In this document: positions 24,361 to 53,008 of the stretch, one piece after another
How positions within the stretch are numbered: position 1 is the stretch's first letter
How the letters are laid out: every line of letters begins with the position of its first letter
NCBI RefSeq assembly: GCF_002941025.1
Contig: NZ_PTJS01000001.1
Coordinates: forward strand, 5,151,472 to 5,215,471
From: Streptomyces sp. QL37
GTDB lineage: Bacteria > Actinomycetota > Actinomycetes > Streptomycetales > Streptomycetaceae
Length of the DNA: 64,000 nucleotides
Reading direction: 5' to 3'
Program-made: the position numbers and the translations under genes
The notes under the pieces: model-generated
Databases searched by the model: none
Told to the model about the DNA's origin: nothing
What the model saw: the letters and a program-made list of their open reading frames with translations, nothing else

Positions 24361-24372
24361 CTACGCGCGTTA
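24361..24372. promoter_or_regulatory. Nucleoside-regulon operator candidate (bmpA)
   Basis: CTACGCGCGTTA, an imperfect copy of the CTACGCGCGTAG palindrome found upstream of other nucleoside genes in this window; the 8-base core ACGCGCGT is intact. It lies 61 bases before the TTG start of the BmpA lipoprotein gene. Confidence 0.5.
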
Positions 24373-24432
24373 CGATCGCCGCGAAACCAGCGCCGGAAGA
24401 GGCGCTTCGGTCAGGTTTGAAGGAGCCTTCCC

Positions 24433-25482
24433 TTGCGCCGGATCACCAGGATTGCCACCGTGGGCGTCATGTCCGCGGCACTCGCGCTGAGCGTCACGGC
24501 GTGTGGCGAGTCTTCCTCGTCGAGTAGCAGTTCCGACTCCAAGGCCGACAAAACGGCCATTGCCTACGACATCGGTGGCCGCGGTGACCAGTCGTTCAAC
24601 GACGCCGCCTACGCGGGCCTGGCCCGGGCCGAGAAGGACCTCGGCGTCAAGGGGACCGAGGCCGAGCCGTCGGACGGCGAGGCGGACGCCGACAAGGTGC
24701 AGCGCCTCACCGCGCTGGCCCGCGCCGGCAACAACCCGGTGATCGGCGTCGGCTTCGCCTACGCCCCCGCCATCAAGAAGGTCGCGCCGAAGTTCCCGAA
24801 GATCACCTTCGGCATCATCGACGACGCCTCCGTGACCGGCGAGAACATCGCCAACATCGTCTTCAACGAGGAGCAGGGCTCCTACCTCGCGGGTGTCGCC
24901 GCCGCCAAGGTCACCAAGACCAAGACGGTCGGCTTCATCGGTGGTGTCGAGACCCCGCTGATCAAGAAGTTCCAGGCGGGCTTCGAGCAGGGCGTCAAGG
25001 AGACGGACCCGTCGGTCAAGGTCGTCCCCCAGTACCTGACGCAGCCGCCGAACTTCGACGGTTTCTCCAAGCCGGACCTCGGCAAGGCCGCCGCCCAGGG
25101 GCAGCTCGACAAGGGCGCCGACGTGGTCTACTCGGCAGCCGGTCTGGCCGGTTCCGGTGCGATCGAGGCCGTCTCCAAGGCCGGCAAGTGGAACATCGGC
25201 GTCGACTCCGACCAGTACAAGCAGGCGGGTCTGGCCGACTACAAGGACTCGATCCTGACCTCGGTCACCAAGGACGTCGAGGACTCCGTCTTCAACCTGA
25301 TCAAGTCCGTCAAGGACGGCAAGCCGCAGTCCGGTGAGGTCCGTTACGGCCTCGACAAGGACGGCGTCGGCCTGGCCATGTCCAACCCGGCCTTCACCAA
25401 GATGACCGATGTCATCGCCGCCGTGGACAAGGCGAAGAAGGAAATCATCGACGGCAAGATCACCGTCAAGACCGCCCCGTAA
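24433..25482 (+). CDS. BmpA-type nucleoside-binding lipoprotein
   Basis: A 349-residue substrate-binding protein of a BMP-family ABC transporter. It has an N-terminal basic region, a hydrophobic stretch and the lipobox LSVTACGE (lipidated Cys), then a Ser-rich linker. The mature part shows AIAYDIGGRGDQSFNDAAY, VIGVGFAYAPAI and GAVDVVYSAAG-like binding segments (ADVVYSAAGLAGSG) typical of nucleoside-binding BmpA/PnrA proteins. It captures nucleosides outside the membrane for the ATPase and permeases downstream. TTG 24433 is the start, with GAAGGAGCC just upstream. A hairpin after the stop may limit transcription into the following genes, giving an excess of binding protein. Confidence 0.9.
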   Translation: MRRITRIATVGVMSAALALSVTACGESSSSSSSSDSKADKTAIAYDIGGRGDQSFNDAAYAGLARAEKDLGVKGTEAEPSDGEADADKVQRLTALARAGNNPVIGVGFAYAPAIKKVAPKFPKITFGIIDDASVTGENIANIVFNEEQGSYLAGVAAAKVTKTKTVGFIGGVETPLIKKFQAGFEQGVKETDPSVKVVPQYLTQPPNFDGFSKPDLGKAAAQGQLDKGADVVYSAAGLAGSGAIEAVSKAGKWNIGVDSDQYKQAGLADYKDSILTSVTKDVEDSVFNLIKSVKDGKPQSGEVRYGLDKDGVGLAMSNPAFTKMTDVIAAVDKAKKEIIDGKITVKTAP

Positions 25483-25511
25483 CGATCCCGGTCGTCACGC
25501 TGGTTTCCCGT

Positions 25512-25545
25512 GGGCCCGGAGCGCGCACCTCGCCGCTTCGGGCCC
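25512..25545 (+). terminator. Hairpin between bmpA and ABC genes (terminator/attenuator)
   Basis: GGGCCCGGAGCG (25512-25523) pairs with CGCTTCGGGCCC (25534-25545), 12 base pairs with one G-T wobble and a 10-base loop. There is no T-run. It lies 30 bases after the lipoprotein stop. Confidence 0.45.
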
Positions 25546-25654
25546 GTGGGGTGCTCATCGAGGAAGTTGTGCCCTTCGCGATGCCCTGCTCGCACAGGTC
25601 CGGAACCCGGTGTTCGGACCGTGCCGTGCGCCTACGCTTTACGATTCGGCAGCG

Positions 25655-25666
25655 CTACGCGTGTAG
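25655..25666. promoter_or_regulatory. Nucleoside-regulon operator candidate (ABC transporter genes)
   Basis: CTACGCGTGTAG, one mismatch from the perfect palindrome CTACGCGCGTAG. It lies upstream of the ATPase gene and implies that the ATPase-permease-cdd run has its own regulated promoter. Confidence 0.55.
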
Positions 25667-25708
25667 ACGGTCCTCAGGCGCGATAACTTCACCCCGCCCC
25701 CTGCCCCT

Positions 25709-27304
25709 GTGCTCCCGCTCCTGTCCGGCCAAGGAGAGTGCGTCATCAACGCGTCCAGCAGTCCCCCCGCCGTAGAACTGCACGGCATCACCAAGCGCTT
25801 CCCCGGCGTCGTGGCCAACCACGACATCGGCATCACCGTACGCAAGGGAACGGTCCACGCCCTCGTCGGTGAGAACGGCGCGGGCAAGTCCACCCTGATG
25901 AAGATCCTCTACGGCATGCAGAAGCCTGACGAGGGCACCATCGCCGTGGACGGCGAGCAGGTCTCGTTCGGCAACCCCGGTGACGCCATCGCGCGCGGAA
26001 TCGGCATGGTCCACCAGCACTTCATGCTCGCCGACAACTTCACCGTCCTGGAGAACGTCGTACTGGGCGGCGAGAAGCTGCACGGCATCGGCTCCGCCGC
26101 GCGCAAGAAGATCAAGGAGATCTCCGACGCGTACGGTCTGGGGGTCAGGCCCGACGCGCTCGTCGAAGACCTCGGCGTCGCCGACCGTCAGCGTGTGGAG
26201 ATCCTCAAGGTCCTCTACCGCGGCGCCCGCATCCTGATCCTGGACGAGCCGACCGCGGTGCTGGTCCCGCAGGAGGTCGACGCGCTCTTCGCGAACCTCC
26301 GCGAACTCAAGGCCGAGGGCCTCACCGTCATCTTCATCTCGCACAAGCTCGGCGAGGTCCTCTCCGTCGCGGACGAGATCACGGTCATCCGACGCGGCAC
26401 GACGGTCGGCACCGCCGACCCCGCGAACACCACCTCCAAGCAGCTCGCCGAGCTGATGGTCGGCAGCGAGCTCCCCTCGCCGGAGACCCGCGAGTCGACG
26501 GTGACGGACGTGCCGATGCTGCGCGTCGAAGGACTCACCCTCAGCGTGACGGACCCCGACGGGGCCGTGCGTGACGTCCTGTCCGATGTGGGCTTCACGA
26601 TCCACAAGGGCGAGGTCCTGGGCATCGCGGGCGTCGAGGGCAACGGGCAGACCGAACTGATCGAGACGCTCGTCGGCATGCGGAACCCGGACAGCGGAGT
26701 CATCACGCTGGACACCGACGACATCTCGCGCACCCCCACGCGCAAGAGGCGCGAGGGCGGCATCGGATACATCCCCGAGGACCGCCACCGCCACGGGGTG
26801 CTGCTGGACTCCCCGCTCTGGGAGAACCGCATCCTCGGCCATGTCACCGAGAAGCCCAACAGCAAGGGCTGGCTGCTGGACCCGAAGGCGGCACGCGCCG
26901 ACACGGAGCGGATCGTGCGCGAGTACGACGTCCGTACCCCGGGCATCGAGGTCACCGCGGCCTCCCTCTCCGGCGGCAACCAGCAGAAGCTGATCGTCGG
27001 CCGCGAGATGAGCCACAACCCGAAGCTCCTGATCGCCGCCCACCCCACCCGCGGGGTGGACGTCGGCGCGCAGGCGCAGATCTGGGACCAGATCCGCGAG
27101 GCGCGCCGCGAAGGGCTGGCGGTCCTGCTGATCTCGGCGGACCTGGACGAGCTCATCGGGCTCTCCGACACCCTGCGCGTCATGTTCCGCGGGCAGCTGG
27201 TCGCCGACGCCGACCCCGCCACCATCACACCCGAGGAACTGGGCTCGGCCATGACCGGTGCCGCCGCCGGTCACCTCGAAGCAGCACCGGAGGACGAGGC
27301 CTGA
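25709..27304 (+). CDS. Nucleoside ABC transporter ATP-binding protein (two ATPase domains)
   Basis: A ~530-residue fused double ATPase of the sugar/nucleoside importer type. The first domain has GENGAGKST (Walker A), LGVADRQRVEI (signature region) and ILILDEPTAVL (Walker B). The second has the degenerate GVEGNGQTE P-loop, LSGGNQQKL signature and a Walker B in which IAAHPTRGVD replaces the usual Glu, as is common in this subfamily. It powers nucleoside import with the two permeases. The start is uncertain: the strong ribosome site AAGGAGAG (25731-25738) precedes ATC/GTC codons rather than ATG or GTG, while the only standard in-frame start, GTG 25709, lies upstream of it. Its stop overlaps the next ATG. 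Confidence 0.9.
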   Translation: MLPLLSGQGECVINASSSPPAVELHGITKRFPGVVANHDIGITVRKGTVHALVGENGAGKSTLMKILYGMQKPDEGTIAVDGEQVSFGNPGDAIARGIGMVHQHFMLADNFTVLENVVLGGEKLHGIGSAARKKIKEISDAYGLGVRPDALVEDLGVADRQRVEILKVLYRGARILILDEPTAVLVPQEVDALFANLRELKAEGLTVIFISHKLGEVLSVADEITVIRRGTTVGTADPANTTSKQLAELMVGSELPSPETRESTVTDVPMLRVEGLTLSVTDPDGAVRDVLSDVGFTIHKGEVLGIAGVEGNGQTELIETLVGMRNPDSGVITLDTDDISRTPTRKRREGGIGYIPEDRHRHGVLLDSPLWENRILGHVTEKPNSKGWLLDPKAARADTERIVREYDVRTPGIEVTAASLSGGNQQKLIVGREMSHNPKLLIAAHPTRGVDVGAQAQIWDQIREARREGLAVLLISADLDELIGLSDTLRVMFRGQLVADADPATITPEELGSAMTGAAAGHLEAAPEDEA

Positions 27305-28422
27305 TGAGGAAATTCGACAAGGACCGGCTGATCCTGGGCTTCGCCGGCCCGGTACTCGCCCTGGTCGTGGCCTTCGTGCTCAGCACCCTGGTGCTGCTCG
27401 TCTCCGACCGCGACCCCTTCGAGCTGTACCGACTGCTGTTCGAGCAGGTGTCGTACAGCGACGTGCAGGTCCTGATCATCAACCAGGCCGGGACCTACTA
27501 CCTCGCCGCTCTCGCGGTCGCGGTCGGCTTCCGCATGAACCTCTTCAACATCGGTGTCGACGGGCAGTACCGCCTCGCGGCGATGATGGCGGCCCTCGTC
27601 GGCGCCAGCGTCAGCCTCCCCGGGCCGCTCCAGATCGCGCTGATCGTCGTCGTCGCGATGCTCGTGGGCGCCTTCTGGGCCGGTATCGCGGGCATTCTCA
27701 AGACCACGCGCGGCGTGAGCGAGGTCGTCTCGACGATCATGCTCAACTCCATCTCGACCTCGCTGATCGCCTGGCTGATCCTGCCGAAGAACTTCGGTGA
27801 GCAGGCGGTGGGCTCCAACAACCTGACGACGGGCGACATCCCGGAATCCGGCTGGTTCCCGGGCCTGCCCCTGAGCCCCGACGCCGGCGAGATCTACGGC
27901 TTCACCTTCGTCGCCGTCGGCTGCGGTCTCGTCTACTGGCTCGTGCTGAACCGCACCCGCTTCGGCTTCGACCTCCGTGCCACGGGCGCCAGCGAGAGCG
28001 CCGCACAGGCCTCCGGTGTGGACGCCAAGAAGATGATCCTCACCTCGATGCTGATCTCCGGTGCGATCGCGGGTCTCGTCGGGATGCCGACGCTGCTGGG
28101 TGACACCCACACCTACAGCCTCGACTTCCCCGTCGGCCTCGGCTTCACCGGCATCACCATCGCCCTGCTCGGCCGCAACCACCCCGTGGGCATCGCGCTC
28201 AGCGCGCTGCTCATCGCGTTCCTGGACAAGGCGTCGTCCCCTCTCGACCAGTTCGGCTTCGAGAAGGAGATCGCCACGATCATGCAAGGCCTGATCGTGA
28301 TCTCGGTCGTCGTCAGCTACGAACTCGTCCGGCGCTACGGGACCCGCCGCCAGCAGCAGAAGGTCGGCGAGGAACTCGCCGCCGGCCACGCCCTCACCAC
28401 CGAGAAGGAGGCGGCCCTGTGA
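27304..28422 (+). CDS. Nucleoside ABC transporter permease 1
   Basis: A 372-residue permease of the BPD_transp_2 type with about ten hydrophobic segments. The conserved permease stretches are visible: FRMNLFNIGVDGQYRLAAMMAA, GVSEVVSTIMLNSI and FGFDLRATGASESAAQASGV (cytoplasmic loop that contacts the ATPase). With permease 2 it forms the membrane channel for nucleosides. Its ATG shares a base with the ATPase stop codon (TGATG), so translation is coupled. The C-terminal tail is charged and cytosolic. Confidence 0.92.
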   Translation: MRKFDKDRLILGFAGPVLALVVAFVLSTLVLLVSDRDPFELYRLLFEQVSYSDVQVLIINQAGTYYLAALAVAVGFRMNLFNIGVDGQYRLAAMMAALVGASVSLPGPLQIALIVVVAMLVGAFWAGIAGILKTTRGVSEVVSTIMLNSISTSLIAWLILPKNFGEQAVGSNNLTTGDIPESGWFPGLPLSPDAGEIYGFTFVAVGCGLVYWLVLNRTRFGFDLRATGASESAAQASGVDAKKMILTSMLISGAIAGLVGMPTLLGDTHTYSLDFPVGLGFTGITIALLGRNHPVGIALSALLIAFLDKASSPLDQFGFEKEIATIMQGLIVISVVVSYELVRRYGTRRQQQKVGEELAAGHALTTEKEAAL

Positions 28423-29684
28423 GCACCAGCAAAGTCTCCGCCGCACGCGTCGCCGCCCCGAAGGGCGGCGGACGGCGCAAGCTGTCCCTGCCCGTCGTCC
28501 TCCTGATCATCGCCGGTGCGCTCGCCCTCGTCTCGCTCGTGCGTCTCATCAGCGGCGCCGACGACGTGACCTCCGTGGGCCAGGTGAGCGGCGCCCTCGA
28601 ACTCGCGGTCCCGATCGGCCTGGCGGGTCTCGGCGGACTCTGGGCCGAGCGGGCCGGCGTCGTCAACATCGGCCTCGAAGGCATGATGATCCTGGGCACG
28701 TGGTTCGGGGCCTGGGCCGGTTTCCAGTGGGGCCCGTGGGTGGGCGTCCTCTTCGGCATCATCGGTGGCGCGCTCGGCGGGCTGCTCCACGCGATCATCA
28801 CCGTCACCTTCGGCGTGAACCACATCGTCTCCGGTGTGGCCATCAACATCCTCGCCGTCGGCGTCACCCGCTACCTCTCCAACTTCACCTTCGCCGACGA
28901 GCCCGGCGGATCCTCCAAGCAGTCCCCGCGCCTGGAGGAGATCGACAAGATCACCATCCCAGGGCTGTCGGACTGGATGCAGGACCTGCAACAACACCAC
29001 TGGTTCTTCGTGTCCGACGTGGCCGGCATCGTCGGAGGCCTGGTCACCGGACTGTCGTGGCTCACCGTCGTCGCCCTGCTGCTCATCCCCGTCACCTGGT
29101 ACGTGCTGTGGCGCACGCCCTTCGGTCTGCGACTCCGCTCCTGCGGTGAGAGCCCGGTCGCGGCCGAGACCCTCGGCGTGAACGTCTACAAGTACAAGTA
29201 CATCGCCGTCACGATCTCCGGCGGCCTGGCGGGACTCGGTGGCGCGTTCCTGGCCATCGTCGCCACCAGCATCTACCAGGAGGGCCAGACGGGCGGCCGA
29301 GGCTACATCGGTCTCGCCGCGATGATCTTCGGTAACTGGATGCCGGGCGGCATGGCGCTGGGGGCCGGACTCTTCGGCTTCACCGACAGCCTCAAGCTCC
29401 GCGGCGGCGCCGAGAACGTCCACGCGATGCTGCTGCTCCTGGCGATCCTCCTGGTGATCGTCGTCTTCTGGCAGCTGTACCGGAAGAAGTACGTGAGCGC
29501 GCTGATCTCGGCGGTCGTCTCCGGCCTGCTGTTCACCTGGTACGGCCTTGTGGACCAGGTCCCGAGCCAGTTCGTGGACGCCGCGCCGTACGTCACGACG
29601 CTGCTGGTGCTCGCCCTGTCCGCGCAGCGGTTGCGCATGCCCAAGGCGGACGGCGTGCCGTACCGCAAGGGCGAGGGCAAGTGA
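28419..29684 (+). CDS. Nucleoside ABC transporter permease 2
   Basis: A 421-residue second permease of the same family. Recognisable parts are LWAERAGVVNIGLEGMMILG, VNHIVSGVAINILAVGVTRYL and LRSCGESPVAAETLGVNVYK (ATPase-coupling loop). It begins with GTG overlapping the stop of permease 1 by four bases and ends overlapping the cytidine deaminase start in the same way. The unbroken coupling from ATPase to deaminase argues for one transcript that brings nucleosides in and starts their breakdown. Confidence 0.92.
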   Translation: MSTSKVSAARVAAPKGGGRRKLSLPVVLLIIAGALALVSLVRLISGADDVTSVGQVSGALELAVPIGLAGLGGLWAERAGVVNIGLEGMMILGTWFGAWAGFQWGPWVGVLFGIIGGALGGLLHAIITVTFGVNHIVSGVAINILAVGVTRYLSNFTFADEPGGSSKQSPRLEEIDKITIPGLSDWMQDLQQHHWFFVSDVAGIVGGLVTGLSWLTVVALLLIPVTWYVLWRTPFGLRLRSCGESPVAAETLGVNVYKYKYIAVTISGGLAGLGGAFLAIVATSIYQEGQTGGRGYIGLAAMIFGNWMPGGMALGAGLFGFTDSLKLRGGAENVHAMLLLLAILLVIVVFWQLYRKKYVSALISAVVSGLLFTWYGLVDQVPSQFVDAAPYVTTLLVLALSAQRLRMPKADGVPYRKGEGK

Positions 29685-30079
29685 CGACTCCCTCGCCCGT
29701 CGACTGGGACGCGCTCCGCGAGGCCGCCCGGGACGCGATGTCCCGGGCGTACGCCCCGTACTCGGGTTACCCGGTCGGTGTGGCGGCCCTCGTCGACGAC
29801 GGCCGCATGATCACCGGGTGCAACGTCGAGAACGCCTCGTACGGCATCAGCCTGTGCGCGGAGTGCGGGCTGGTCTCGCAGCTGGCCGCCACGGGCGGCG
29901 GCCGGCTGACCCACTTCACCTGCGTGGACGGCACGGGCGCCCCGCTCGTGCCGTGCGGGCGGTGCCGGCAGCTGCTGTACGAGTTCGGGGGGCCCGGCCT
30001 CGTCCTGGAGACGCCCGACGGTCTCCGTACGCTCGACGAGATGCTGCCGCAGGCCTTCGGCCCGCAGCACCTGGGGTAG
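29681..30079 (+). CDS. cdd: Cytidine deaminase
   Basis: A 132-residue cytidine deaminase, the size of the tetrameric form. The active site is visible: GCNVENASYG, then LCAECG (zinc Cys and catalytic Glu) and PCGRCRQLL (two further zinc Cys). It turns cytidine and deoxycytidine into uridine and deoxyuridine in the cytosol, feeding thymidine/uridine phosphorylase next door. It starts with GTG overlapping the permease stop (GTGA). A strong hairpin follows, then deoA with its own operator. Confidence 0.93.
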   Translation: MTTPSPVDWDALREAARDAMSRAYAPYSGYPVGVAALVDDGRMITGCNVENASYGISLCAECGLVSQLAATGGGRLTHFTCVDGTGAPLVPCGRCRQLLYEFGGPGLVLETPDGLRTLDEMLPQAFGPQHLG

Positions 30080-30102
30080 TGCCCCGCCGCCGCTCCGTTC
30101 GT

Positions 30103-30131
30103 CCCCGGCGGGCCCGACCGGCCCGCCGGGG
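30103..30131 (+). terminator. Hairpin after cdd
   Basis: CCCCGGCGGGCC (30103-30114) and GGCCCGCCGGGG (30120-30131) are perfect complements with a 5-base loop. There is no T-run. It separates the transporter-cdd unit from deoA. Confidence 0.5.
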
Positions 30132-30157
30132 GAACGCGGCGGCGGAACGTTCCCTCT

Positions 30158-30169
30158 CTATGCGCGTAG
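30158..30169. promoter_or_regulatory. Nucleoside-regulon operator candidate (deoA)
   Basis: CTATGCGCGTAG, one mismatch from CTACGCGCGTAG; with its flanks the symmetry runs over 16 bases (CTCTATGCGCGTAGAG, 30156-30171). It lies 50 bases before the deoA start. Confidence 0.6.
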
Positions 30170-30218
30170 AGTCAGCAGGACTCTCGCCCACCCCTCCGGC
30201 CGGAAGGACTCCCCTCCC

Positions 30219-31496
30219 ATGGACGCCATCTCCGTCATCCGCACCAAGCGGGACCGAGGCGAGCTCAGCCCCGAGCAGATCGACTGGGTCATCGACGCGT
30301 ACACCCGCGGCGAGGTCGCCGACGAGCAGATGTCCGCACTGGCCATGGCGATCCTGCTCAACGGCATGAACCGCACCGAGATCGCCCGCTGGACCGCCGC
30401 GATGATCGCCTCCGGCGAGCGGATGGACTTCGGCGCGCTCTCCCGCCCCACCACGGACAAGCACTCCACCGGCGGCGTCGGCGACAAGATCACCCTGCCG
30501 CTCGCCCCGCTGGTCGCCGCCTGCGGTGCCGCCGTGCCACAGCTCAGCGGCCGGGGCCTCGGCCACACCGGCGGCACCCTCGACAAGCTGGAGTCCATCC
30601 CCGGCTGGCGCGCCCACCTCTCCAACGCCGAGATGCTGGACGTCCTGGACACCACCGGCGCCGTGATCTGCGCGGCGGGCGACGGGCTCGCCCCCGCCGA
30701 CAAGAAGCTGTACGCGCTGCGCGACGTCACCGGCACCGTCGAGGCGATCCCGCTGATCGCCAGCTCGATCATGTCCAAGAAGATCGCCGAGGGCACCGGG
30801 GCGCTCGTCCTCGACGTCAAGGTCGGCTCCGGCGCCTTCATGAAGACCATCGAGGACGCCCGCGAACTGGCCTCCACCATGGTCGCGCTGGGCACCGACA
30901 GCGGCGTACGGACCGTGGCGCTGCTCACCGACATGGCGACCCCGCTCGGCCTCACCGCCGGTAACGCCCTGGAGGTGCGCGAGTCCGTCGAGGTCCTCGC
31001 CGGGGGCGGCCCGAAGGACGTCATCGACCTGACCCTCGCGCTGGCCCGCGAGATGCTCGACGCCGCCGGACTCAAGGACGCCGACCCGGAGAAGGCGCTG
31101 GCCGACGGCTCCGCCATGGACGTCTGGCGCCGCATGATCTCCGCCCAGGGCGGCGACCCGGACGCCGCGCTCCCCGTCGCCCGCGAGCAGCACGTGATCA
31201 GCGCCCCGTCCTCGGGCGTGCTGACCCGCCTCGACGCGTACGACGTCGGCGTCGCCGCCTGGCGCCTCGGCGCGGGCCGTGCGCGCAAGGAGGACCCGGT
31301 GCAGGCGGGTGCGGGCATCGAGCTGCACGCCAAGCCGGGGGACACGGTGGCCGAGGGCCAGCCGCTGCTGACCCTGCACACGGACACCCCCGAGAAGTTC
31401 GAGTACGCGCTGAAGGCCCTGCCCGGCTCGTACGACATCGCACCGGCCGGCACGCCCTTCACCGCCACGCCGGTGGTGCGGGAACGTATCGCCTGA
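30219..31496 (+). CDS. deoA: Thymidine phosphorylase
   Basis: A 425-residue pyrimidine-nucleoside phosphorylase that splits thymidine or deoxyuridine with phosphate to give the base and deoxyribose 1-phosphate. The family signature is KHSTGGVGDKITLPLAPLVA (phosphate and ribose contacts). Other conserved stretches are GHTGGTLDKLESIPG and ASSIMSKKIAEGTGALVLDVKVG. The C-terminal domain (VAAWRLGAGRARKEDPVQAGAGI) is typical. Preceded by GGAAGGA and by an operator-like palindrome shared with other nucleoside genes. A perfect 15-bp terminator stem follows. Its product feeds the phosphosugar mutase and DeoC encoded at 48-52 kb. Confidence 0.95.
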   Translation: MDAISVIRTKRDRGELSPEQIDWVIDAYTRGEVADEQMSALAMAILLNGMNRTEIARWTAAMIASGERMDFGALSRPTTDKHSTGGVGDKITLPLAPLVAACGAAVPQLSGRGLGHTGGTLDKLESIPGWRAHLSNAEMLDVLDTTGAVICAAGDGLAPADKKLYALRDVTGTVEAIPLIASSIMSKKIAEGTGALVLDVKVGSGAFMKTIEDARELASTMVALGTDSGVRTVALLTDMATPLGLTAGNALEVRESVEVLAGGGPKDVIDLTLALAREMLDAAGLKDADPEKALADGSAMDVWRRMISAQGGDPDAALPVAREQHVISAPSSGVLTRLDAYDVGVAAWRLGAGRARKEDPVQAGAGIELHAKPGDTVAEGQPLLTLHTDTPEKFEYALKALPGSYDIAPAGTPFTATPVVRERIA

Positions 31497-37916: not shown

Positions 37917-37928
37917 CTACGCGCGTAG
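37917..37928. promoter_or_regulatory. Nucleoside-regulon operator (add)
   Basis: Perfect 12-base palindrome CTACGCGCGTAG. It occupies the spacer just upstream of a -10-like TACAGT (37933-37938) that ends six bases before the adenosine deaminase ATG, so binding here should block that leaderless promoter. Confidence 0.7.
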
Positions 37929-37944: not shown

Positions 37945-39099
37945 ATGACGAGCCAGACCCTGAATGTCCCCGGTCCCGACCAGATCCGCCGCGCGCCCAA
38001 GGTGCTGCTCCACGACCATCTCGACGGCGGCCTCCGCCCCGGCACGATCGTCGACCTGGCGCGGGAGCAGGGCTACGACGCCCTGCCCGAGACCGAGCCC
38101 GACAAGCTCGGCCTCTGGTTCCGCGAGGCCGCCGACTCCGGTTCGCTGGAGCGGTATCTGGAGACGTTCGCCCACACCTGCGCCGTCATGCAGACCCGTG
38201 ACGCGCTGTTCCGGGTGGCCATGGAGTGCGCCGAGGACCTCGCCGAGGACGGAGTCGTCTACGCCGAGGTGCGGTACGCGCCCGAGCAGCACCTCACCGC
38301 GGGCCTGTCCCTCGAAGAGGTGGTCGAGGCGGTCAACGAGGGTTTCCGCGAGGGTGAGCGCCGGGCCCGTGCCGCCGGCCACCGCATCCGCGTCGGCGCC
38401 CTCCTCACCGCGATGCGGCACGCAGCCCGCGCGCTGGAGATCGCCGAACTCGCCAACCGCTACCGCGATCTGGGCGTCGTCGGCTTCGACATCGCGGGCG
38501 CCGAGGCGGGTTACCCGCCCACCCGTCACCTGGACGCCTTCGAGTACCTCAAGCGCGAGAACAACCACTTCACCATCCACGCGGGTGAGGCCTTCGGGCT
38601 GCCGTCGATCTGGCAGGCCCTGCAGTGGTGCGGCGCCGACCGGCTCGGCCACGGTGTCCGCATCATCGACGACATCGAGATCGCCGACGACGGCAGTGTG
38701 ACGCTCGGCCGCCTCGCCTCCTACGTACGCGACAAGCGCATTCCGCTGGAGCTCTGCCCGACCTCCAACCTCCAGACCGGTGCCGCGGCCTCGTACGCCG
38801 ACCACCCCATCGGGCTGCTGCGGAAGCTGCATTTCCGCGCCACCGTGAACACGGACAACCGGCTGATGAGCGGGACGAGCATGAGCCGGGAATTCGAGCG
38901 GCTGACCGAGACTTTCGGATACACGCTCGACGACATGCAGTGGTTCACAGTCAATGCGATGAAATCAGCGTTCATTCCTTTCGATGAACGTCTGGCGATG
39001 ATCAATGACGTCGTGAAGCCCGGGTACGCCGAGCTGAAATCCGAGTGGCTCTTCCGTCAGACGGCTGTGACCAGTGCTTCTTCATCAGTCGCGGGCTGA
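37945..39099 (+). CDS. add: Adenosine deaminase
   Basis: A 384-residue adenosine deaminase converting adenosine and deoxyadenosine to inosine and deoxyinosine. Metal and catalytic residues are visible: [12 protein letters not shown] (HxH), [10 protein letters not shown] (His and Glu), DRLGHGVRI (His) and VNTDNRLMS (Asp-Asp-like pair site). Length fits actinobacterial Add. ATG 37945 appears leaderless, directly after a -10 and the perfect operator palindrome. The products go to the purine nucleoside phosphorylase encoded at 52147-52971, whose gene has the same operator. A classical terminator with a T-run follows. Confidence 0.95.
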
Positions 39100-46115: not shown

Positions 46116-46121
46116 CGGAGG

Positions 46122-47024
46122 TCAGTACGAGGAGCCCGAGGCCCCCAGGGCGCCCGTCGGGTGCCAGACCGTCTTGGTCTCCAGGAAGGCCGTCAGGCGG
46201 TGGGTCCCCGGGTCCGCCGACCAGTCGCCCGTATCCACAGCCTGTGGACGAAGGACGCGTTTCAGGTTGTCGGCAGCCGCGGCCTCCAGCTCCTTCGCCA
46301 GTGCCGGATCGCCCGCCGCACCCGTCAGGTCGATGGCGTTGACGTCCTGGTGGGACGCCAGAGGTGCCGCGAGCTCCGCGGTCCTCCCCGACAGGATGTT
46401 CACCACACCGCCGGGCAGGTCGGAGGTCGCCAGGACCTCGCCCAGCGAGAGCGCGGGCAGCGGTGCGTCGGCCGAGGCGATGACGACCGCGGTGTTCCCG
46501 GTGGCGATCACCGGGGCGACCACCGACACCAGGCCGAGGAACGACGACTCCTGGGGAGCCAGGACCGCGACCACACCCGTCGGTTCAGGGGTGGACAGGT
46601 TGAAGAACGGTCCCGCGACCGGGTTCGCCCCGCCCACGACCTGGCCGATCTTGTCCGTCCAGCCCGCGTACCAGACCCAGCGGTCGACCGCCGCGTCCAC
46701 CACGGCGGCCGCCTTGGACTTCGACAGCCCTTCGGCTTCCGCGACCTCCCGTACGAACTGTTCCCGGCGGCCCTCCAGCATCTCCGCGACGCGGTAGAGG
46801 ATCTGCCCGCGGTTGTACGCGGTCGCGCCCGACCAGCCGCCGAACGCCTTGCGCGCGGCCACGACCGCGTCGCGCGCGTCCTTGCGGGAGGACTGCGGGG
46901 CGTTCGCCAGCCACTTGCCCTTCGAGTCCGTCACCTCGTACACCCGGCCGCTCTCGGAGCGGGGGAACTTGCCCCCGACGTACAGCTTGTAGGTCTTGAA
47001 GACGCTCAGTCGCCCGTCAGACAT
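46122..47024 (-). CDS. Truncated, non-catalytic aldehyde dehydrogenase domain (ALDH16 C-half-like)
   Basis: A 300-residue aldehyde dehydrogenase-like protein. It aligns with the NAD-binding part (VYEVTDSKGKWLANAPQSSRKDARDAV, then VVAVLAPQESSFLGLVSVVAP and NTAVVIASADAPLP) but has no catalytic Cys and lacks the rest of the catalytic domain. ALDH16-type enzymes carry exactly such a half-size second domain after a full one; here the two are separate genes overlapping by eight bases. It therefore looks like a structural partner of the upstream dehydrogenase rather than a broken gene. It ends at a terminator. Confidence 0.75.
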   Translation of the reverse strand: MSDGRLSVFKTYKLYVGGKFPRSESGRVYEVTDSKGKWLANAPQSSRKDARDAVVAARKAFGGWSGATAYNRGQILYRVAEMLEGRREQFVREVAEAEGLSKSKAAAVVDAAVDRWVWYAGWTDKIGQVVGGANPVAGPFFNLSTPEPTGVVAVLAPQESSFLGLVSVVAPVIATGNTAVVIASADAPLPALSLGEVLATSDLPGGVVNILSGRTAELAAPLASHQDVNAIDLTGAAGDPALAKELEAAAADNLKRVLRPQAVDTGDWSADPGTHRLTAFLETKTVWHPTGALGASGSSY

Positions 47025-48453
47025 CGAGGTAGGCCTCCAGACCGTGACGGCCGCCCTCGCGGCCGAAGCCCGACTCCTTGTATCCGCCGAACGGCGAGGT
47101 CGGGTCGAACTTGTTGAACGTGTTGGCCCAGATGACGCCGGCCCGGAGCTTGTTCGCCACCGCGAGGATGCGGGAGCCCTTCTCCGTCCAGATGCCAGCC
47201 GAGAGGCCGTACTGGCTGTTGTTGGCCTTCGCGACGGCCTCGTCCGGCGTGCGGAAGGTCAGCACCGACAGCACCGGGCCGAAGATCTCGTCGCGGGCGA
47301 CGGTGTGCGCCTGGGTGACCCCGGTGAAGAGGGTCGGCGCGAACCAGTAACCGGCGGAGGGGAGTTCGCACGGCGCGGACCACCGCTCGGCGCCCTCCGC
47401 CTCACCCGTCTCGACGAGCGCGCTGATCCGGGAGAGCTGCTCGGCGGAGTTGATCGCGCCGATGTCGGTGTTCTTGTCCAGCGGATCACCGAGCCGGAGC
47501 GTGGAGAGCCGGCGCTTCAGGGCGTGCAGCACCTCGTCGTGCACGGACTCCTGCACGAGGAGCCGTGAGCCCGCGCAGCAGACCTGGCCCTGGTTGAAGA
47601 AGATGCCGGTGACGATGCCCTCGACGGCCTGGTCGACCGGGGCGTCGTCGAAGACGATGTTGGCGCCCTTGCCGCCCAGTTCGAGCGTGGCCTTCTTGTC
47701 CGTGCCCGCGATCTGCCGGGCGATCGCCTTGCCGACCGCGGTCGAACCGGTGAACGCGACCTTGTTCACGTCCGGATGCTCGACGAGGGCCGAGCCCGCG
47801 TCGCCGTACCCCGTGAGGATGTTGACGACACCCTTGGGCAGGCCCGCCTGGCGGCAGACATCGGCGAAGAACAGGGCCGACAGCGGAGTGGTCTCCGCCG
47901 GCTTCAGCACCACCGTGTTGCCGGTGGCGAGCGCCGGGGCGATCTTCCACGCGAGCATCAGCAGCGGGAAGTTCCACGGGATGATCTGGCCGGCCACGCC
48001 GAGCGGACGCGGGTCCGCGCCGTAGCCCGCGTGGTCGAGCTTGTCCGCCCAGCCCGCGTAGTAGAAGAAGTGCGCGGCGACGAGCGGGAGGTCCGCGTCG
48101 CGGGTCTCCCTGATCGGCTTGCCGTTGTCCAGGGTCTCCAGGACGGCGAGCTCGCGGGAGCGCTCCTGGATGATCCGGGCGATCCGGAAGAGGTACTTGG
48201 CGCGCTCGGAACCGGGCAGCGCCGACCACTTCTCGAACGCCCTGCGGGCCGCCTTCACCGCGCGGTCCACGTCCTCGGCGCCTGCGTGCGCCACCTCGGA
48301 GAGCACCTCCTCGGTGGACGGGCTGACCGTCTTGAAGACCTTGCCGTCGGCCGCCTCGGCGAACTCGCCGTCGATGAACAGGCCGTACGAGGGAGCGATG
48401 TCGACGACGGAGCGGGACTCCGGGGCCGGTGCGTAATCGAATGCGGATGCCAT
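47017..48453 (-). CDS. Aldehyde dehydrogenase (NAD-dependent)
   Basis: A 478-residue full-length aldehyde dehydrogenase. It has PWNFPLLMLAWKIAPALATGNTVVLK (cofactor binding, split), FTGSTAVGKAIA, ELGGKGANIVFDDA (general-base Glu) and NQGQVCCAGSRLLV (catalytic Cys). The gene begins six bases after the deoC stop and overlaps the truncated partner gene. DeoC releases acetaldehyde from deoxyribose 5-phosphate, so oxidation of acetaldehyde to acetate is the obvious role; this is inferred from context. The operon would be controlled by the operator upstream of deoC. Confidence 0.88.
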   Translation of the reverse strand: MASAFDYAPAPESRSVVDIAPSYGLFIDGEFAEAADGKVFKTVSPSTEEVLSEVAHAGAEDVDRAVKAARRAFEKWSALPGSERAKYLFRIARIIQERSRELAVLETLDNGKPIRETRDADLPLVAAHFFYYAGWADKLDHAGYGADPRPLGVAGQIIPWNFPLLMLAWKIAPALATGNTVVLKPAETTPLSALFFADVCRQAGLPKGVVNILTGYGDAGSALVEHPDVNKVAFTGSTAVGKAIARQIAGTDKKATLELGGKGANIVFDDAPVDQAVEGIVTGIFFNQGQVCCAGSRLLVQESVHDEVLHALKRRLSTLRLGDPLDKNTDIGAINSAEQLSRISALVETGEAEGAERWSAPCELPSAGYWFAPTLFTGVTQAHTVARDEIFGPVLSVLTFRTPDEAVAKANNSQYGLSAGIWTEKGSRILAVANKLRAGVIWANTFNKFDPTSPFGGYKESGFGREGGRHGLEAYLDV

Positions 48454-48459
48454 GGCGTA

Positions 48460-49416
48460 TCAGTCCACCGTCACGTAATCGGGGCCGGAGTAACGGCCGG
48501 TGCTGAGCTTCTGGCGCTGCATCAGCAGGTCGTTCAGCAGGCTGGAGGCGCCGAAGCGGAACCAGTGGTTGTCCAGCCAGTCCTCGCCCGCGGTCTCGTT
48601 CACCAGGACGAGGAACTTGATCGCGTCCTTGGAGGTACGGATGCCGCCCGCGGGCTTCACGCCGATCTGTACGCCCGTCTGCTCCCGGAAGTCGCGTACG
48701 GCCTCCAGCATCAGCAGCGTGTTCGCCGGAGTGGCGTTGGTCCCGACCTTGCCCGTCGACGTCTTGATGAAGTCCGCGCCGGCCAGCATCCCGAGCCACG
48801 AGGCCCGCCGGATGTTGTCGTACGTGGACAGCTCGCCGGTCTCGAAGATCACCTTCAGCCGCGCGGAGCCGCACTCCGCCTTCACGGCGACGATCTCCTC
48901 GTAGACCTTGAGGTAGCGGCCGGAGAGGAAGGCGCCGCGGTCGATCACCATGTCGATCTCGTCGGCCCCGGCCGCCACGGCGTCGCGGACGTCCGCGAGC
49001 TTGACGTCCAGCGCGGCGCGGCCGGCGGGGAAGGCAGTCGCGACGGACGCGACCTTCACGCCGGAGCCGGCCAGCGCGGCGACTGCGGTCGCCGCCATGT
49101 CGGGGTAGACGCAGACCGCCGCGGTGCGCGGGGTCGTGCGGTCGGTCGGATCGGGGTTGACGGCCTTGGCGGCGAGAGCCCGGACCTTGCCCGGGGTGTC
49201 CGCGCCTTCCAGCGTCGTCAGGTCGATCATCGAGATGGCGAGATCGATCGCGTACGCCTTGGCGGTCGTCTTGATCGAACGGGTGCCGAGGGAGGCGGCG
49301 CGCGCTTCGAGGCCGACGGTGTCGACACCGGGCAGCCCGTGCAGGAAGCGGCGCAGCGCACTGTCGGACGCCGTCGCGTCGGAGAATGCCGGAGCAGTGG
49401 TGGGCATGGTCACCAC
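48460..49416 (-). CDS. deoC: Deoxyribose-phosphate aldolase
   Basis: A 318-residue aldolase that splits 2-deoxyribose 5-phosphate into glyceraldehyde 3-phosphate and acetaldehyde. Motifs: AVCVYPDMAATA, EIDMVIDRGAFLSG, LKVIFETGEL (Schiff-base region), ADFIKTSTGK (catalytic Lys) and GVKPAGGIRT. The length fits eukaryote/actinobacterial DeoC with an N-terminal extension. GTG 49416 is seven bases past TAGATA (49429-49424), consistent with a leaderless mRNA; ATG 49407 is an alternative. The perfect operator palindrome overlaps this promoter. First gene of the deoC-ALDH-ALDH operon. Confidence 0.92.
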   Translation of the reverse strand: MVTMPTTAPAFSDATASDSALRRFLHGLPGVDTVGLEARAASLGTRSIKTTAKAYAIDLAISMIDLTTLEGADTPGKVRALAAKAVNPDPTDRTTPRTAAVCVYPDMAATAVAALAGSGVKVASVATAFPAGRAALDVKLADVRDAVAAGADEIDMVIDRGAFLSGRYLKVYEEIVAVKAECGSARLKVIFETGELSTYDNIRRASWLGMLAGADFIKTSTGKVGTNATPANTLLMLEAVRDFREQTGVQIGVKPAGGIRTSKDAIKFLVLVNETAGEDWLDNHWFRFGASSLLNDLLMQRQKLSTGRYSGPDYVTVD

Positions 49417-49426
49417 ATGAGCATAT

Positions 49427-49438
49427 CTACGCGCGTAG
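49427..49438. promoter_or_regulatory. Nucleoside-regulon operator (deoC operon)
   Basis: Perfect CTACGCGCGTAG palindrome directly abutting and overlapping the deoC -10 element (TAGATA, minus strand, 49429-49424). Binding would exclude RNA polymerase. Confidence 0.7.
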
Positions 49439-49531
49439 CGACCTGTACAGGGGGCTCCCCGCTTCCGCGCCTTCCGCGGACCGGGAGAGGCCTCTCCCCA
49501 CCCCGCCGGACCGTCAGGCAGAATCGGGGCC

Positions 49532-50170
49532 ATGACGAGCCCCACACCCCCCGCCGAGCCCGCCCACGCCGACCGGACCTTCCGGTCGGGCGCCGGGCTG
49601 GTCAGCGGCGTGCTGCTGATCCTGCTGGTCGGCTGGATCGGCGGCGACGCGGTGGTCCAGGGCAAGGGATGGGTGCCTTGGCTGGCGCTGGCCGCGCTGC
49701 TGGCGGTGATCCCGCTGATCGTGGCCTTCACACTGCGCCCGGCCGTCTTCGCCGACGAGGAACGGATCCGGATCCGCAACCCCTTCCGCACGATCGTGCT
49801 GCCCTGGACGGACGTCTCCACCGTGCGCGCCGCGTACTCGAGCGAGGTCTTCACCCACAGCGGCGACAAGTACCAGCTGTGGGCGGTCCCCGTCTCGCTG
49901 CGCGAGCGCAAGCGGGCGGCCAGGAAGGCCACCCAGCAGGCGCACGACGACCCGTACGGCCGGACCTCCGTGCACGCCGACGTCCGCGACACCCAGGCCC
50001 GCGCGGCCGCCGCCGACCAGACGGTGAGCGACCTGAGAGAGCTCGCCGAGGGCGCAGCCGCCCGAAAGGCAGAGGGCACGACCACCGCGTCGGTCCGCTG
50101 GGCCTACGAGGTGATCGCCCCGGCCGTCGTCGGCGCCGTACTGCTCGTGGTGCTGCTGGCGATCGCCTGA
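49532..50170 (+). CDS. PH-domain membrane protein
   Basis: A 212-residue membrane protein: two helices near the N-terminus (LVSGVLLILLVGWIGG, LALAALLAVIPLIVAF), a bacterial PH-like domain (FADEERIRIRNPFRTIVLPWTDVSTVRAAYSSEVFT split over strands) and one C-terminal helix (PAVVGAVLLVVLLAIA). This layout matches the bPH_6 family common in actinomycetes near house-keeping genes; function unknown. A charged helical region (KRAARKATQQAHDD) lies between. Divergent from deoC. Confidence 0.78.
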   Translation: MTSPTPPAEPAHADRTFRSGAGLVSGVLLILLVGWIGGDAVVQGKGWVPWLALAALLAVIPLIVAFTLRPAVFADEERIRIRNPFRTIVLPWTDVSTVRAAYSSEVFTHSGDKYQLWAVPVSLRERKRAARKATQQAHDDPYGRTSVHADVRDTQARAAAADQTVSDLRELAEGAAARKAEGTTTASVRWAYEVIAPAVVGAVLLVVLLAIA

Positions 50171-50282
50171 CCCCCTCGTCGGGAAGTTGCGGACGCTGAA
50201 ATGCCGTCGAAACGGACACGTTCATGTCCCCGACTTCCCGATGACCCTCGCGGCCACCGGTGGGGGGTGGGGGCGGGGGGCG

Positions 50283-51926
50283 TTAGATGGCTGCTGCCGT
50301 GGCCAGGTCGCGTTTGATGCCGGCCAGCAGCTCGGAGGCCCGCAGCCTCGCTTCCGGGAGTGCGGTTGCGTCGGCTACCGGGACCACGACCTCCAGGTAG
50401 CACTTCAGCTTCGGTTCCGTGCCGCTCGGGCGGACGATGACCCTGGCCCCCGTCAGGTGGTAGCGCAGGCCGTCGGTGGGCGGCAGGGCGTCCGTGCCCT
50501 GCGAGAGGTCCTCGGCCGAGGTGACGGGGAGGCCCGCCAGGGTGGTCGGGGGAGTCTCACGCAGACGCCGCATGGCGTTCGCGATGACGGTCAGGTCCTC
50601 GACCCGGACCGACAGCTGGTCCGTGGCGTGCAGGCCGTGCGCGAGTGCCAGGTCGTCGAGCAGGTCGAGGAGTGTGCGGCCCTTCTCCTTGAGCGCGGAG
50701 GCGAGTTCGGCGATCAGCAGCGCGGCGGTGATGCCGTCCTTGTCGCGGACGCCCTCGGGGTCCACGCAGTAGCCGAGCGCCTCCTCGTACCCGTAGCGCA
50801 GACCCTCGACGCGGGCGATCCACTTGAAGCCCGTCAGGGTCTCCTCGTAGCCCAGGCCCGCCTTCTCGGCGATCCGGCCGAGGAGGGAGGACGACACGAT
50901 CGACTCGGCGAGGACTCCGGTGATCCCGCGGTCCACCAGGTGGGCGGCCAGCAGCGCGCCCACCTCGTCGCCGCGCAGCATCCGCCAGCCGCCCCCGGCC
51001 GACGGGTCGGGCACGGCGACGGCGCAGCGGTCGGCGTCCGGGTCGTTGGCGATGACGATGTCCGGCTGCGCCCGGCGCGCGGTCGCGAAGGCGAGATCCA
51101 TGGCGCCGGGCTCTTCCGGGTTGGGGAAGGCGACGGTGGGGAACGCCGGGTCCGGGTCCGCCTGTTCGGCTACGAGCACGGGTTCGGGGAAGCCGGCCCG
51201 GGCGAAGGCGGCCGTCAGGACGGAGGTGCCCACTCCGTGCATCGCCGTGTAGACCGTCCGCGCGGTGCGGGGGGAGCCGGGGCTGAGGACGGCGTCCGTA
51301 CGTTCCAGGTACGCGGCCAGGACCTCGTCGCCCAGGACCTCCCAGCCGGACTCCGGGCGCGGCACACCGTCGAGCGGGCCGACCGCGGCGATCGCGGCGG
51401 CGATCTCCGTGTCGGCCGGGGGCACGATCTGCGAGCCGTCGCCGAGGTAGACCTTGTAGCCGTTGTCGCGCGGCGGGTTGTGGCTGGCCGTGACCTCCAC
51501 GCCCGCGACGGCCCCCAGGTGCCGTATGGCGTACGCGAGGACGGGGGTGGGCAGCGGGCGGGGGAGCACGGCCGCGCGCAGGCCGGCGCCGGTCATCACC
51601 GCCGCGGTGTCGCGGGCGAAGTCGGCGGACTTGTAGCGCGCGTCGTAGCCGATGACGACGAGTCCGCCGGACTGCCCCTGTGCCTTCAGGTACGCCGCGA
51701 GGCCGGCGGCGGCGCGGATGACGACGGAGCGGTTCATGCGCATCGGGCCGGCGCCGATCTCACCGCGCAGGCCGGCCGTGCCGAACTGGAGCGTGCCCGC
51801 GAAGCGGTCCGCCAGCGCGGCCAGGTCACCGGCGTCGATCAGCGCGGCGAGCTCCGCGCGGGTCTCGGGGTCCGGGTCCTCGGCGAGCCAGGTCCTGGCC
51901 TGCGTGATGAGGTCCTGCTGCTGCAC
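50283..51926 (-). CDS. Phospho-sugar mutase (phosphomannomutase/phosphopentomutase type)
   Basis: A 547-residue alpha-D-phosphohexomutase superfamily enzyme. The phosphoserine loop is GVEVTASHNPPRDNGYK, the metal loop is NDPDADRCAVA, the sugar-binding loop is GYEETLTGFKWIA-like and the phosphate-binding end is RPSGTEPKLKCYLEV. The length and the VTASHNP context fit the PGM2/phosphopentomutase-like group. Lying between deoC and the purine nucleoside phosphorylase gene, it could convert (deoxy)ribose 1-phosphate to the 5-phosphate, bridging the phosphorylases to DeoC; mannose or glucose phosphates are alternatives. It has no nucleoside operator of its own. Confidence 0.88.
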   Translation of the reverse strand: MQQQDLITQARTWLAEDPDPETRAELAALIDAGDLAALADRFAGTLQFGTAGLRGEIGAGPMRMNRSVVIRAAAGLAAYLKAQGQSGGLVVIGYDARYKSADFARDTAAVMTGAGLRAAVLPRPLPTPVLAYAIRHLGAVAGVEVTASHNPPRDNGYKVYLGDGSQIVPPADTEIAAAIAAVGPLDGVPRPESGWEVLGDEVLAAYLERTDAVLSPGSPRTARTVYTAMHGVGTSVLTAAFARAGFPEPVLVAEQADPDPAFPTVAFPNPEEPGAMDLAFATARRAQPDIVIANDPDADRCAVAVPDPSAGGGWRMLRGDEVGALLAAHLVDRGITGVLAESIVSSSLLGRIAEKAGLGYEETLTGFKWIARVEGLRYGYEEALGYCVDPEGVRDKDGITAALLIAELASALKEKGRTLLDLLDDLALAHGLHATDQLSVRVEDLTVIANAMRRLRETPPTTLAGLPVTSAEDLSQGTDALPPTDGLRYHLTGARVIVRPSGTEPKLKCYLEVVVPVADATALPEARLRASELLAGIKRDLATAAAI

Positions 51927-51977
51927 GGTGTCCGCCTTTCTGCGGTACGGGGGGTGGGGGCCGCTGCGCGGGGCTGC

Positions 51978-52147
51978 CGGGGGCTCTGCCCCCGGACCCC
52001 CGCGCCTCGAACGCCGGCGGGGCTGGGTCTGGTTGCCCTGTGCCTCGGGAGAGGCGGGGGATCGTCGGGGGCGAGATGCAAGCCGAGCCGGGCAGAATCA
52101 AGCCCCTCCGGCGATTGAGGAGCGGGGTGCGGGGGCGGAGCCCCCGC
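51978..52147. repeat. Streptomyces intergenic inverted-repeat element (REP-like)
   Basis: Two related hairpins, CCGGGGGC/GCCCCCGG (51978-51996) and GCGGGGGC/GCCCCCGC (52129-52147), flank inverted segments: CCTCGAACGCCGGCGGGGCT on the left and AGCCCCTCCGGCGATTGAGG on the right. I recognise the 'GGCG-TTTGAGG' type of dispersed intergenic element frequent in Streptomyces. The right hairpin touches the phosphorylase stop codon and may act as its terminator. Confidence 0.6.
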
Positions 52148-52971
52148 TAGATCCGGTCCAGCACCCGCGCCAGCAGCGCGCCCATCCGGGTCGCCGAGTC
52201 GCGGCCGGCCTGGAGGACCTCCTCGTGGTTGAGGGGTTCACCGCTGAGGCCCGCCGCGAGGTTCGTCACCAGCGAGATGCCCAGCACCTCCGCGCCCGCC
52301 TCACGCGCCGCGATGGCCTCCAGGACGGTGGACATGCCGACCAGGTCCCCGCCCATGGCCCGGACCATGCCGATCTCGGCCGGGGTCTCGTAGTGCGGGC
52401 CGGGGAACTGCACGTACACGCCCTCTTCGAGCGACTCGTCGATCTCCTTGCACAGCGCGCGCAGCCGCGGCGAGTACAGGTCCGTCAGGTCGACGAAGTT
52501 GGCGCCGATGATCGGCGACGCGGCCGTCAGGTTGATGTGGTCGCTGATGAGGACCGGCTGGCCGGGGCGCATGCCCTCGCGCAGGCCGCCGCACCCGTTC
52601 GTGAGGATGACGGTCCGGCAGCCCGCGGAGACCGCCGTGCGGACGCCGTGCGCGACCGCCGCGACCCCCCGGCCCTCGTAGTAGTGCGTACGGCCCAGGA
52701 AGACCAGGGCGCGCTTCTCCCCGATCCGGTACGAGCGGACCGTGCCGCCGTGGCCCTCGACGGCCGGGGCCGGGAATCCGGGCAGCGCGGTGACCGGGAA
52801 CTCGGCCTCCGGGATGCCGAGCGCATCGCCCGCGGGGGCCCACCCGGAGCCCATCACGAGGGCGACGTCGTGGGTATCGGCGCCGGTCAGCTCGCGCAGG
52901 CGGGCGGCGGCGTCGGCAGCGGCGGCGCGGGGGTCGCCCTGGATGTGGTCCGGAATAACAGATGCGTTCAC
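52147..52971 (-). CDS. Purine nucleoside phosphorylase
   Basis: A 274-residue class I (trimeric) purine nucleoside phosphorylase. Motifs: ALVMGSGWAPAG (phosphate loop), LGRTHYYEGRG, LTNGCGGLREGM, ISDHINLTAASPI and FPGPHYETPAEIGMVRAMG (purine and ribose contacts). It cleaves inosine/guanosine and their deoxy forms to base and (deoxy)ribose 1-phosphate, taking the product of adenosine deaminase. GTG 52971 follows TACCCT (52984-52979) by seven bases, so the mRNA is probably leaderless. A perfect operator palindrome covers the -35 region of that promoter. Confidence 0.93.
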   Translation of the reverse strand: MNASVIPDHIQGDPRAAAADAAARLRELTGADTHDVALVMGSGWAPAGDALGIPEAEFPVTALPGFPAPAVEGHGGTVRSYRIGEKRALVFLGRTHYYEGRGVAAVAHGVRTAVSAGCRTVILTNGCGGLREGMRPGQPVLISDHINLTAASPIIGANFVDLTDLYSPRLRALCKEIDESLEEGVYVQFPGPHYETPAEIGMVRAMGGDLVGMSTVLEAIAAREAGAEVLGISLVTNLAAGLSGEPLNHEEVLQAGRDSATRMGALLARVLDRI

Positions 52972-52996
52972 GCGGATGAGGGTAACCGCTGATTCC

Positions 52997-53008
52997 CTAC
53001 GCGCGTAG
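52997..53008. promoter_or_regulatory. Nucleoside-regulon operator (purine nucleoside phosphorylase)
   Basis: Perfect CTACGCGCGTAG palindrome centred over the -35 region of the predicted leaderless promoter of the phosphorylase gene. Confidence 0.7.

Follow-up and report, generated by a model that had tools for sequence, protein, structure and literature searches.

In Escherichia coli, nucleoside uptake and the deo operon are covered by the CytR and DeoR regulons. A similar arrangement, with one or two repressors over nucleoside import and the phosphorylase/aldolase pathway, is suggested by a 64,000-nucleotide stretch of the Streptomyces sp. QL37 genome (hereafter referred to as the window; G000:C1:5151472-5215471, where G000 is the own genome of 8.78 Mb), in which copies of a 12-nt palindrome, CTACGCGCGTAG, precede genes for nucleoside import, deamination, phosphorolysis and deoxyribose breakdown. 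Together with its counterparts elsewhere in the genome, this palindrome almost certainly constitutes one operator of one regulon lying before nucleic-acid genes, probably under a single repressor. The motif and the genes differ from those of the CytR and DeoR regulons, and the set found here includes a nuclease, nucleotidases, a lysozyme and purSQL. A LacI-family protein encoded beside glnR (hereafter referred to as the LacI candidate) is weighed below as the most likely regulator.

CytR is itself of the LacI family, with cytidine and adenosine as inducers (PMC4052901). E. coli PurR is LacI-type like the LacI candidate, controls purine synthesis and has a purine ligand, but it was reported from three gammaproteobacterial orders and is co-repressed by bases (PMC4052901), whereas the genes considered here are mostly catabolic. 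UriR of Corynebacterium, which governs uridine utilization, is an actinobacterial LacI regulator of nucleoside use and is to that extent similar, but it is counted as a local regulator (PMC4052901), and the LacI candidate scores 119 with the UriR model, against a cut-off of 550. NupR of Bacillus thuringiensis (PMC9430930) also regulates nucleoside transport, but is of the GntR/HutC type and acts on other genes. The counterpart in genomic setting is the LacI-family protein SCO4158 of S. coelicolor, which, like the LacI candidate, has glnR upstream and an htrA-like protease gene downstream (SCO4158 downstream of glnR, PMC9739823; protease SCO4157 beside it, PMC3878966); by synteny, we take the LacI candidate to be its ortholog. 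No nucleoside targets are assigned to SCO4158 in the accessible parts of the open-licence literature naming it. An ArgR site is predicted at SCO4158 (PMC5839063) and an argR mutant contains less deoC protein (SCO4914; PMC3293853), a further influence on the locus. The open-licence literature searched yielded neither a regulator of nucleoside or DNA feeding in Streptomyces nor a published regulator for the motif, the 12-mer being present in PMC8063756 and PMC8510090, neither of which, by title, is on Streptomyces.

The operators and genes of the window are as follows (no strand is assigned to the palindromic sites).

24361..24372, weak operator CTACGCGCGTTA, 2 mismatches, 72 bp upstream of the called bmpA start
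24433..25482, plus strand, bmpA, substrate-binding protein (PF02608)
25655..25666, operator CTACGCGTGTAG, 1 mismatch, upstream of the BMP-type ATP-binding cassette (ABC) operon
25709-27304, 27304-28422 and 28419-29684, plus strand, ABC ATPase and two permeases, best NCBIfam models below cut-off
29681..30079, plus strand, cdd, cytidine deaminase, above NCBIfam cut-off, ending the ABC operon and without a site of its own
30158..30169, operator CTATGCGCGTAG, 1 mismatch, upstream of deoA
30219..31496, plus strand, deoA, thymidine/pyrimidine-nucleoside phosphorylase, above NCBIfam cut-off
37917..37928, exact operator, ending 16 nt before the add ATG
37945..39099, plus strand, add, adenosine deaminase, above NCBIfam cut-off
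47017-48453 and 46122-47024, minus strand, two aldehyde dehydrogenase-like genes 3' of deoC, below cut-off
48460-49410, minus strand, deoC, above NCBIfam cut-off
49427..49438, exact operator, upstream of the minus-strand deoC/aldehyde dehydrogenase operon
52147..52971, minus strand, punA, purine-nucleoside phosphorylase, above NCBIfam cut-off, start picked by eye
52997..53008, exact operator, upstream of minus-strand punA, 25 nt before the likely GTG start at 52971
55328..56293, plus strand, DeoR/AgaR-type regulator, proposed earlier as the binder and unsupported in that role

From left to right, the six copies have 2, 1, 1, 0, 0 and 0 mismatches, and the three exact ones, upstream of add, deoC and punA, are the only exact copies in the own genome. 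The first-pass annotation had placed exact copies at 37917, 49427 and 52997, and close copies at 30158, 25655 and 24361, and all six were recovered at these positions. Its statement that the 64 kb contain no other copy holds at up to one mismatch, but not at two, at which positions 18225 and 45477 also match. The longest punA open reading frame begins further upstream than the start chosen here and therefore contains the operator at 52997..53008. A TACAGT-like hexamer lies between the operator and the ATG of add, with TAGAGT in relatives, and, judged by eye, the sites at add, punA and a 5'-nucleotidase gene lie about 4-11 nt upstream of -10-like hexamers, a tight spacing that fits a repressor.

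The position and the conservation of these sites carry the argument. In the genus, 463 exact copies were found against 61 sites for the reversed pattern, with two to six per genome in all 121 genomes scanned. When the locus round an exact copy was opened (one per genome), 46 of 49 lay at add, an add paralogue, punA, deoC, the ABC operon or a 5'-nucleotidase gene; the exceptions were L035, L039 and L075, the last of which corresponds to the gap between purS and lsr2. An exact copy was present in 80 of 81 genomes and 16 of 17 genera of the family Streptomycetaceae, the sole exception (G416) having a one-mismatch copy upstream of deoC and a two-mismatch copy upstream of punA, and in 9 of 262 genomes from the rest of the class. 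In 15 genomes of the family (own included), 54 of the 159 upstream regions of locus genes contained a site at up to one mismatch (matches below 40% identity and regions shorter than 100 bases excluded; G416 contributing only deoC, pgm, punA, lpd and deoR). Conservation in related species, the absence of which had been named beforehand as refuting, is thus present. At this level the site was found at add in 13/13 genomes, at deoC in 15/15, at punA in 14/15 (15/15 at two mismatches), at the ABC operon in 9/14 and at deoA in only 3/14 (4/14 at two mismatches), making deoA the least conserved of the six. No bmpA region had a site at up to one mismatch (0/11), but an identical CTACGCGCGTTA was found in all 11 readable upstream regions, own included. 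In four genomes of the genus (L040, L048, L062 and L074), an exact operator covers the opening codons of a further adenosine deaminase gene (58-61% to add), with MTATRVD as the reading frame across it in L062.

Alternatively, the palindrome could be an element of the promoter, a structural motif in the DNA or simply a word retained by chance. Alternating CG could form unusual DNA, and the mismatch-tolerant counts lend this some colour, one-mismatch copies being mostly no commoner than those of the reversed pattern. The window contains 8 matches at up to two mismatches against 4.5 expected, a number reached by 9 of 100 shuffles; the own genome has 18 sites at up to one mismatch, where the reversed pattern has 27; and the corresponding values in four relatives are 25 against 33, 12 against 43, 25 against 61 and 14 against 8. 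These counts weigh against the regulon: raw mismatch-tolerant numbers are not significant, and the case is made by the exact copies, their position before nucleoside genes and their conservation. We consider a non-operator origin extremely improbable, for three reasons. First, when all 119 remaining palindromes that can be built from the half-site letters were run on the 159 regions, they were found in 0.21 regions on average and in 2 at most. Second, the upstream regions of the same-locus neighbours perm1, cdd, pgm, deoR and the amidohydrolase gene had no site in the 15-genome tally even at two mismatches, and those of lpd had none at up to one and 1/14 at two. Third, all 20 deoA loci opened in other families lacked the motif at up to one mismatch. 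These 20 loci, picked for having deoA, contained cdd in all cases, add in 18 and bmpA in 17; as read from these comparisons, the operator was added to an older set of genes at the level of the family. The flanks of 45 exact sites showed a weak preference (T in 28, G in 16, A in 1 and C in 0 for the base just before), the 12 core positions being invariant in these sites through the selection of exact copies.

The 18 own-genome sites at up to one mismatch comprise the three exact copies and 15 with one mismatch, among them the ABC and deoA sites of the window. Twelve of the 18 lie before genes of the set (11 nucleic-acid genes and one GH25 lysozyme gene); taken with the comparison over 159 regions, this puts the shared site ahead of genes of linked function more often than chance would. 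The sites outside the window are listed below.

L020, one-mismatch site, nuclease with LTD and endonuclease/exonuclease/phosphatase domains, ExeM/NucH-like, below cut-off
L023 and L017, one-mismatch sites upstream of two 5'-nucleotidase-like proteins
L024, one-mismatch site upstream of a Xan_ur_permease protein (purine-type permease)
L016, one-mismatch site upstream of a GH25 lysozyme gene
L010/L022, one-mismatch site upstream of PurS-PurQ-PurL (purSQL)
L004/L019, one-mismatch site, carbon-nitrogen hydrolase gene followed by aminotransferase and dihydropyrimidinase genes, the dihydropyrimidinase above cut-off
L021:3485-3496, CTACGCGCGGAG, 151 bp upstream of a GDSL lipase gene
L013, one-mismatch site at the rpoB start region (by eye)
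L006, L007, L008 and L018, intragenic one-mismatch copies

The L004/L019 operon would encode pyrimidine degradation by the reductive pathway, and chance may account for the sites at the GDSL lipase gene and rpoB. One repressor for import, deamination, phosphorolysis and deoxyribose breakdown had been proposed at the outset. The shared and conserved operator before genes of all four kinds stands, and hence a single regulator is probable, but the gene list was too small: the six nucleoside promoters belong to the set, and the nuclease, 5'-nucleotidases, lysozyme, permease, purSQL and pyrimidine-degradation genes also carry the operator.

Most of this wider set recurs in relatives. In G011, from the same genus, 7 of 21 further one-mismatch sites precede the nuclease, both 5'-nucleotidases, the permease, purSQL and the carbon-nitrogen hydrolase operon, but not GH25; the other 14 are intragenic, at rpoB or without explanation. 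G417, from another genus, has sites at the nuclease, one 5'-nucleotidase, the permease, purSQL and the carbon-nitrogen hydrolase gene, again not at GH25, and the nuclease of G408 carries two. The purSQL site is kept in four genomes with four spellings (CTACCCGCGTAG in the own genome, the exact form in G216, CTACGCGAGTAG in G011 and CTACGCGCGTTG in G417). Among 41 genomes searched, the 5'-nucleotidase site was present in all 30 loci opened (28 at up to one mismatch and two at two), and one of the 41, G002, lacks a close copy of the gene. A guess from spelling that the sites in G408:C53 and G411:C3 are at purS, and the one in G408:C12 at GH25, found no support in tblastn, and these sites are not counted.

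Three arrangements were observed beside these genes. Upstream of the second 5'-nucleotidase gene of G011, two one-mismatch operators lie 14 bp apart (L440:1456-1481); an overlapping operator arrangement of about 13 bp, close to this spacing, is described for some LacI regulators (PMC4052901). At the rpoB start region (by eye), GTACGCGCGTAG occurs in the own genome (G000:C1:4964552-4964563), G011 (L451:1449-1460) and G417 (L248:1590-1601), and may reflect a coding or leader constraint, or RNA polymerase synthesis tied to the same regulator. The purSQL site lies between purSQL and a divergent gene in four genomes (L075:1449-2110, L010, L447 and L243), identified by Pfam as encoding Lsr2 in L075; it may serve either purSQL or the divergent gene, and control of lsr2 by the operator would, if true, be of interest.

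The lysozyme site raises another possibility, as the gene divergent from GH25 encodes a MarR protein (L016:1626-2123) that could be a regulator controlling itself from this site. MarR operators can be 12-bp palindromes, and a conserved CTACGCACGTAG lies about 125 bp upstream of the MarR gene in 18 of 30 loci at one mismatch, and in one more at two. Sorting these 30 loci (41 genomes searched) by gene content argues against this possibility: the site was present in 19 of the 21 with GH25 and in none of the nine without it (two of them shortened by contig ends), the MarR gene staying in place. The site tracks GH25 rather than MarR and therefore looks like a GH25 operator, which makes the MarR protein a very unlikely regulator of the set.

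The DeoR/AgaR-type protein at 55328, encoded beside punA, had been the candidate of the first-pass annotation, and its conservation speaks for it, with orthologues at 75-88% in 16/16 other genera of the family, adjoining lpd/punA in 10 fetched loci of the genus. SCO4920 (DeoR family) and SCO4158 (LacI family) also appear in one table as regulators under carbon catabolite regulation (PMC4848846). This candidacy is weakened by the motif's not following the orthologues across families. Four of them, from two other families, share 59-69% identity in the alignments and an almost unchanged recognition helix, but their genomes contain no exact copy and their loci no site at up to one mismatch, the neighbours (by eye) being sugar ABC genes in three cases and an aldose-epimerase-like gene in one. 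Within the family, a site is absent from all 14 deoR upstream regions, and DeoR-family operators are not known to take this form. Regulation by this protein thus appears improbable. In other families (L251, L253 and L254), a DeoR protein of this type was seen by eye beside sugar-type ABC genes, and its target in Streptomyces may therefore be a relocated sugar system.

The form of the motif, an even palindrome with a central CG (CTAC-GCGC-GTAG), is that of the LacI family, in which such palindromes were reported for 1173 of 1303 regulators (PMC4052901). A Pfam search for LacI proteins in four genomes of the family gave 86 matches (39 of them own, with 21, 11 and 15 in the others), from which 69 proteins were recovered for comparison, 23 own, with one gene double-counted (L279 and L287). 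With the small G417 set as reference, two proteins were reciprocal best hits in each of the three other genera, at no less than 69%. The LacI candidate is one of them and is listed here with its location.

G000:C1:4575776-4576819 (L286:2776-3819), LacI-family candidate, between glnR (PF21695) and an htrA-like protease gene

It has the LacI helix-turn-helix and a periplasmic-binding-like domain (PF00356 at 52.3 bits with a cut-off of 27, and PF13377 and PF00532 above cut-off). All NCBIfam equivalog scores are below cut-off (RbsR 181/382, PurR 174/501, CytR 160/436 and UriR 119/550), the best models, RbsR, PurR, GalS and CytR, being well below. It was found at 69-100% in 18/18 genomes of the family (17 genera) and at no more than 43% in 26 other genomes, a distribution paralleling that of the motif. 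In residues 4-28, the DNA-binding segment, 447 of 450 alignment cells agree with the own protein (own row included), compared with 79% in the ligand domain; such near-invariance is what a protein with many operators to recognize should show. The distance from the candidate gene to the 5'-nucleotidase gene is about 6 kb in the own genome and about 4 kb in G417. In 15 of 18 orthologues, a degenerate site (ACnCGCGTAG core) overlaps the candidate's own -10 region at -21/-22; three of these sites have two mismatches and twelve have three. A site within three mismatches is present in 78 of 80 close relatives, which are not independent. A symmetric degenerate pattern aimed at an autoregulated regulator gave 12 own-genome matches against 20 for the control, seven of the 12 being known sites.

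Several points tell against this choice. The conserved motif has 12 nt, shorter than the usual LacI length, most LacI motifs being of 16-22 nt with seven base pairs contacted on either side of the centre (PMC4052901). The site at the candidate's promoter is weak, with three mismatches here; it is partly the -10 element itself and is missing in three of 18 orthologues. This promoter has been used as constitutive, under the gene name ccpA (PMC4365011), and SCO4158 has been proposed to regulate glnR (PMC9739823). The candidate was chosen on motif form and shared distribution, within a survey of the LacI family covering 23 of 39 own matches. The other protein reciprocally conserved in all three partners, at 69-77%, forms a second LacI group (L267/L308/L278/L318), and with the survey covering part of one family, this group, or a regulator of any other family, could bind the motif. 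The helix-turn-helix sequence of the second group, SEATVSRVLNGKPGV, occurs in three own-genome proteins (L304, L318 and L319), and we take it to be of the MalR/CebR sugar-regulator type; we regard binding by this group, or by a regulator of another family, as unlikely, though by no means remote. For the LacI candidate itself, the evidence above tips the balance slightly towards its being the regulator.

The regulon as a whole would join genes that digest nucleic acids, dephosphorylate nucleotides, import and deaminate nucleosides, phosphorolyse them and use the deoxyribose and bases. Extracellular digestion would be carried out by the nuclease and the two 5'-nucleotidases, presumably secreted in view of signal-like N-termini seen by eye, and the GH25 lysozyme may open other cells as a possible first step. 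The BMP-type ABC transporter and the purine-type permease would serve uptake, and add, punA, deoA, deoC and the pyrimidine reductive pathway would serve breakdown, with purSQL as the single purine-synthesis operon. A dimeric repressor bound near or over the -10 region would stop transcription and be released by a product of nucleic-acid breakdown, for which we guess a nucleoside, base or pentose phosphate because the best-scoring models, although below cut-off, are RbsR, PurR, GalS and CytR. The full proposition, a family-wide nucleic-acid regulon repressed by the glnR-adjacent LacI protein, stands in our judgement barely on the favourable side of even, as judged from sequence comparisons.

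Streptomyces reuse material from soil debris and from their own dying hyphae. A study of SCO4158 by Meng and coworkers in 2012 reportedly found, by its title, effects on antibiotic pigments. Purine supply is also an input to (p)ppGpp and to the control of antibiotics (PMC6627660). The analysis provides an exact operator, targets amounting to about a dozen operons and one protein candidate. In its broadest form, which we put forward tentatively and with slightly less than even confidence, a single LacI repressor encoded beside the nitrogen regulator gene glnR may act as master switch for necromass feeding in Streptomycetaceae, opening lysozyme, deoxyribonuclease, nucleotidase, uptake, breakdown and purine genes jointly once debris of nucleic acids is sensed. 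As part of this same tentative reading, the addition or rewiring of the switch would date to the base of the family, the nucleoside enzymes being older.

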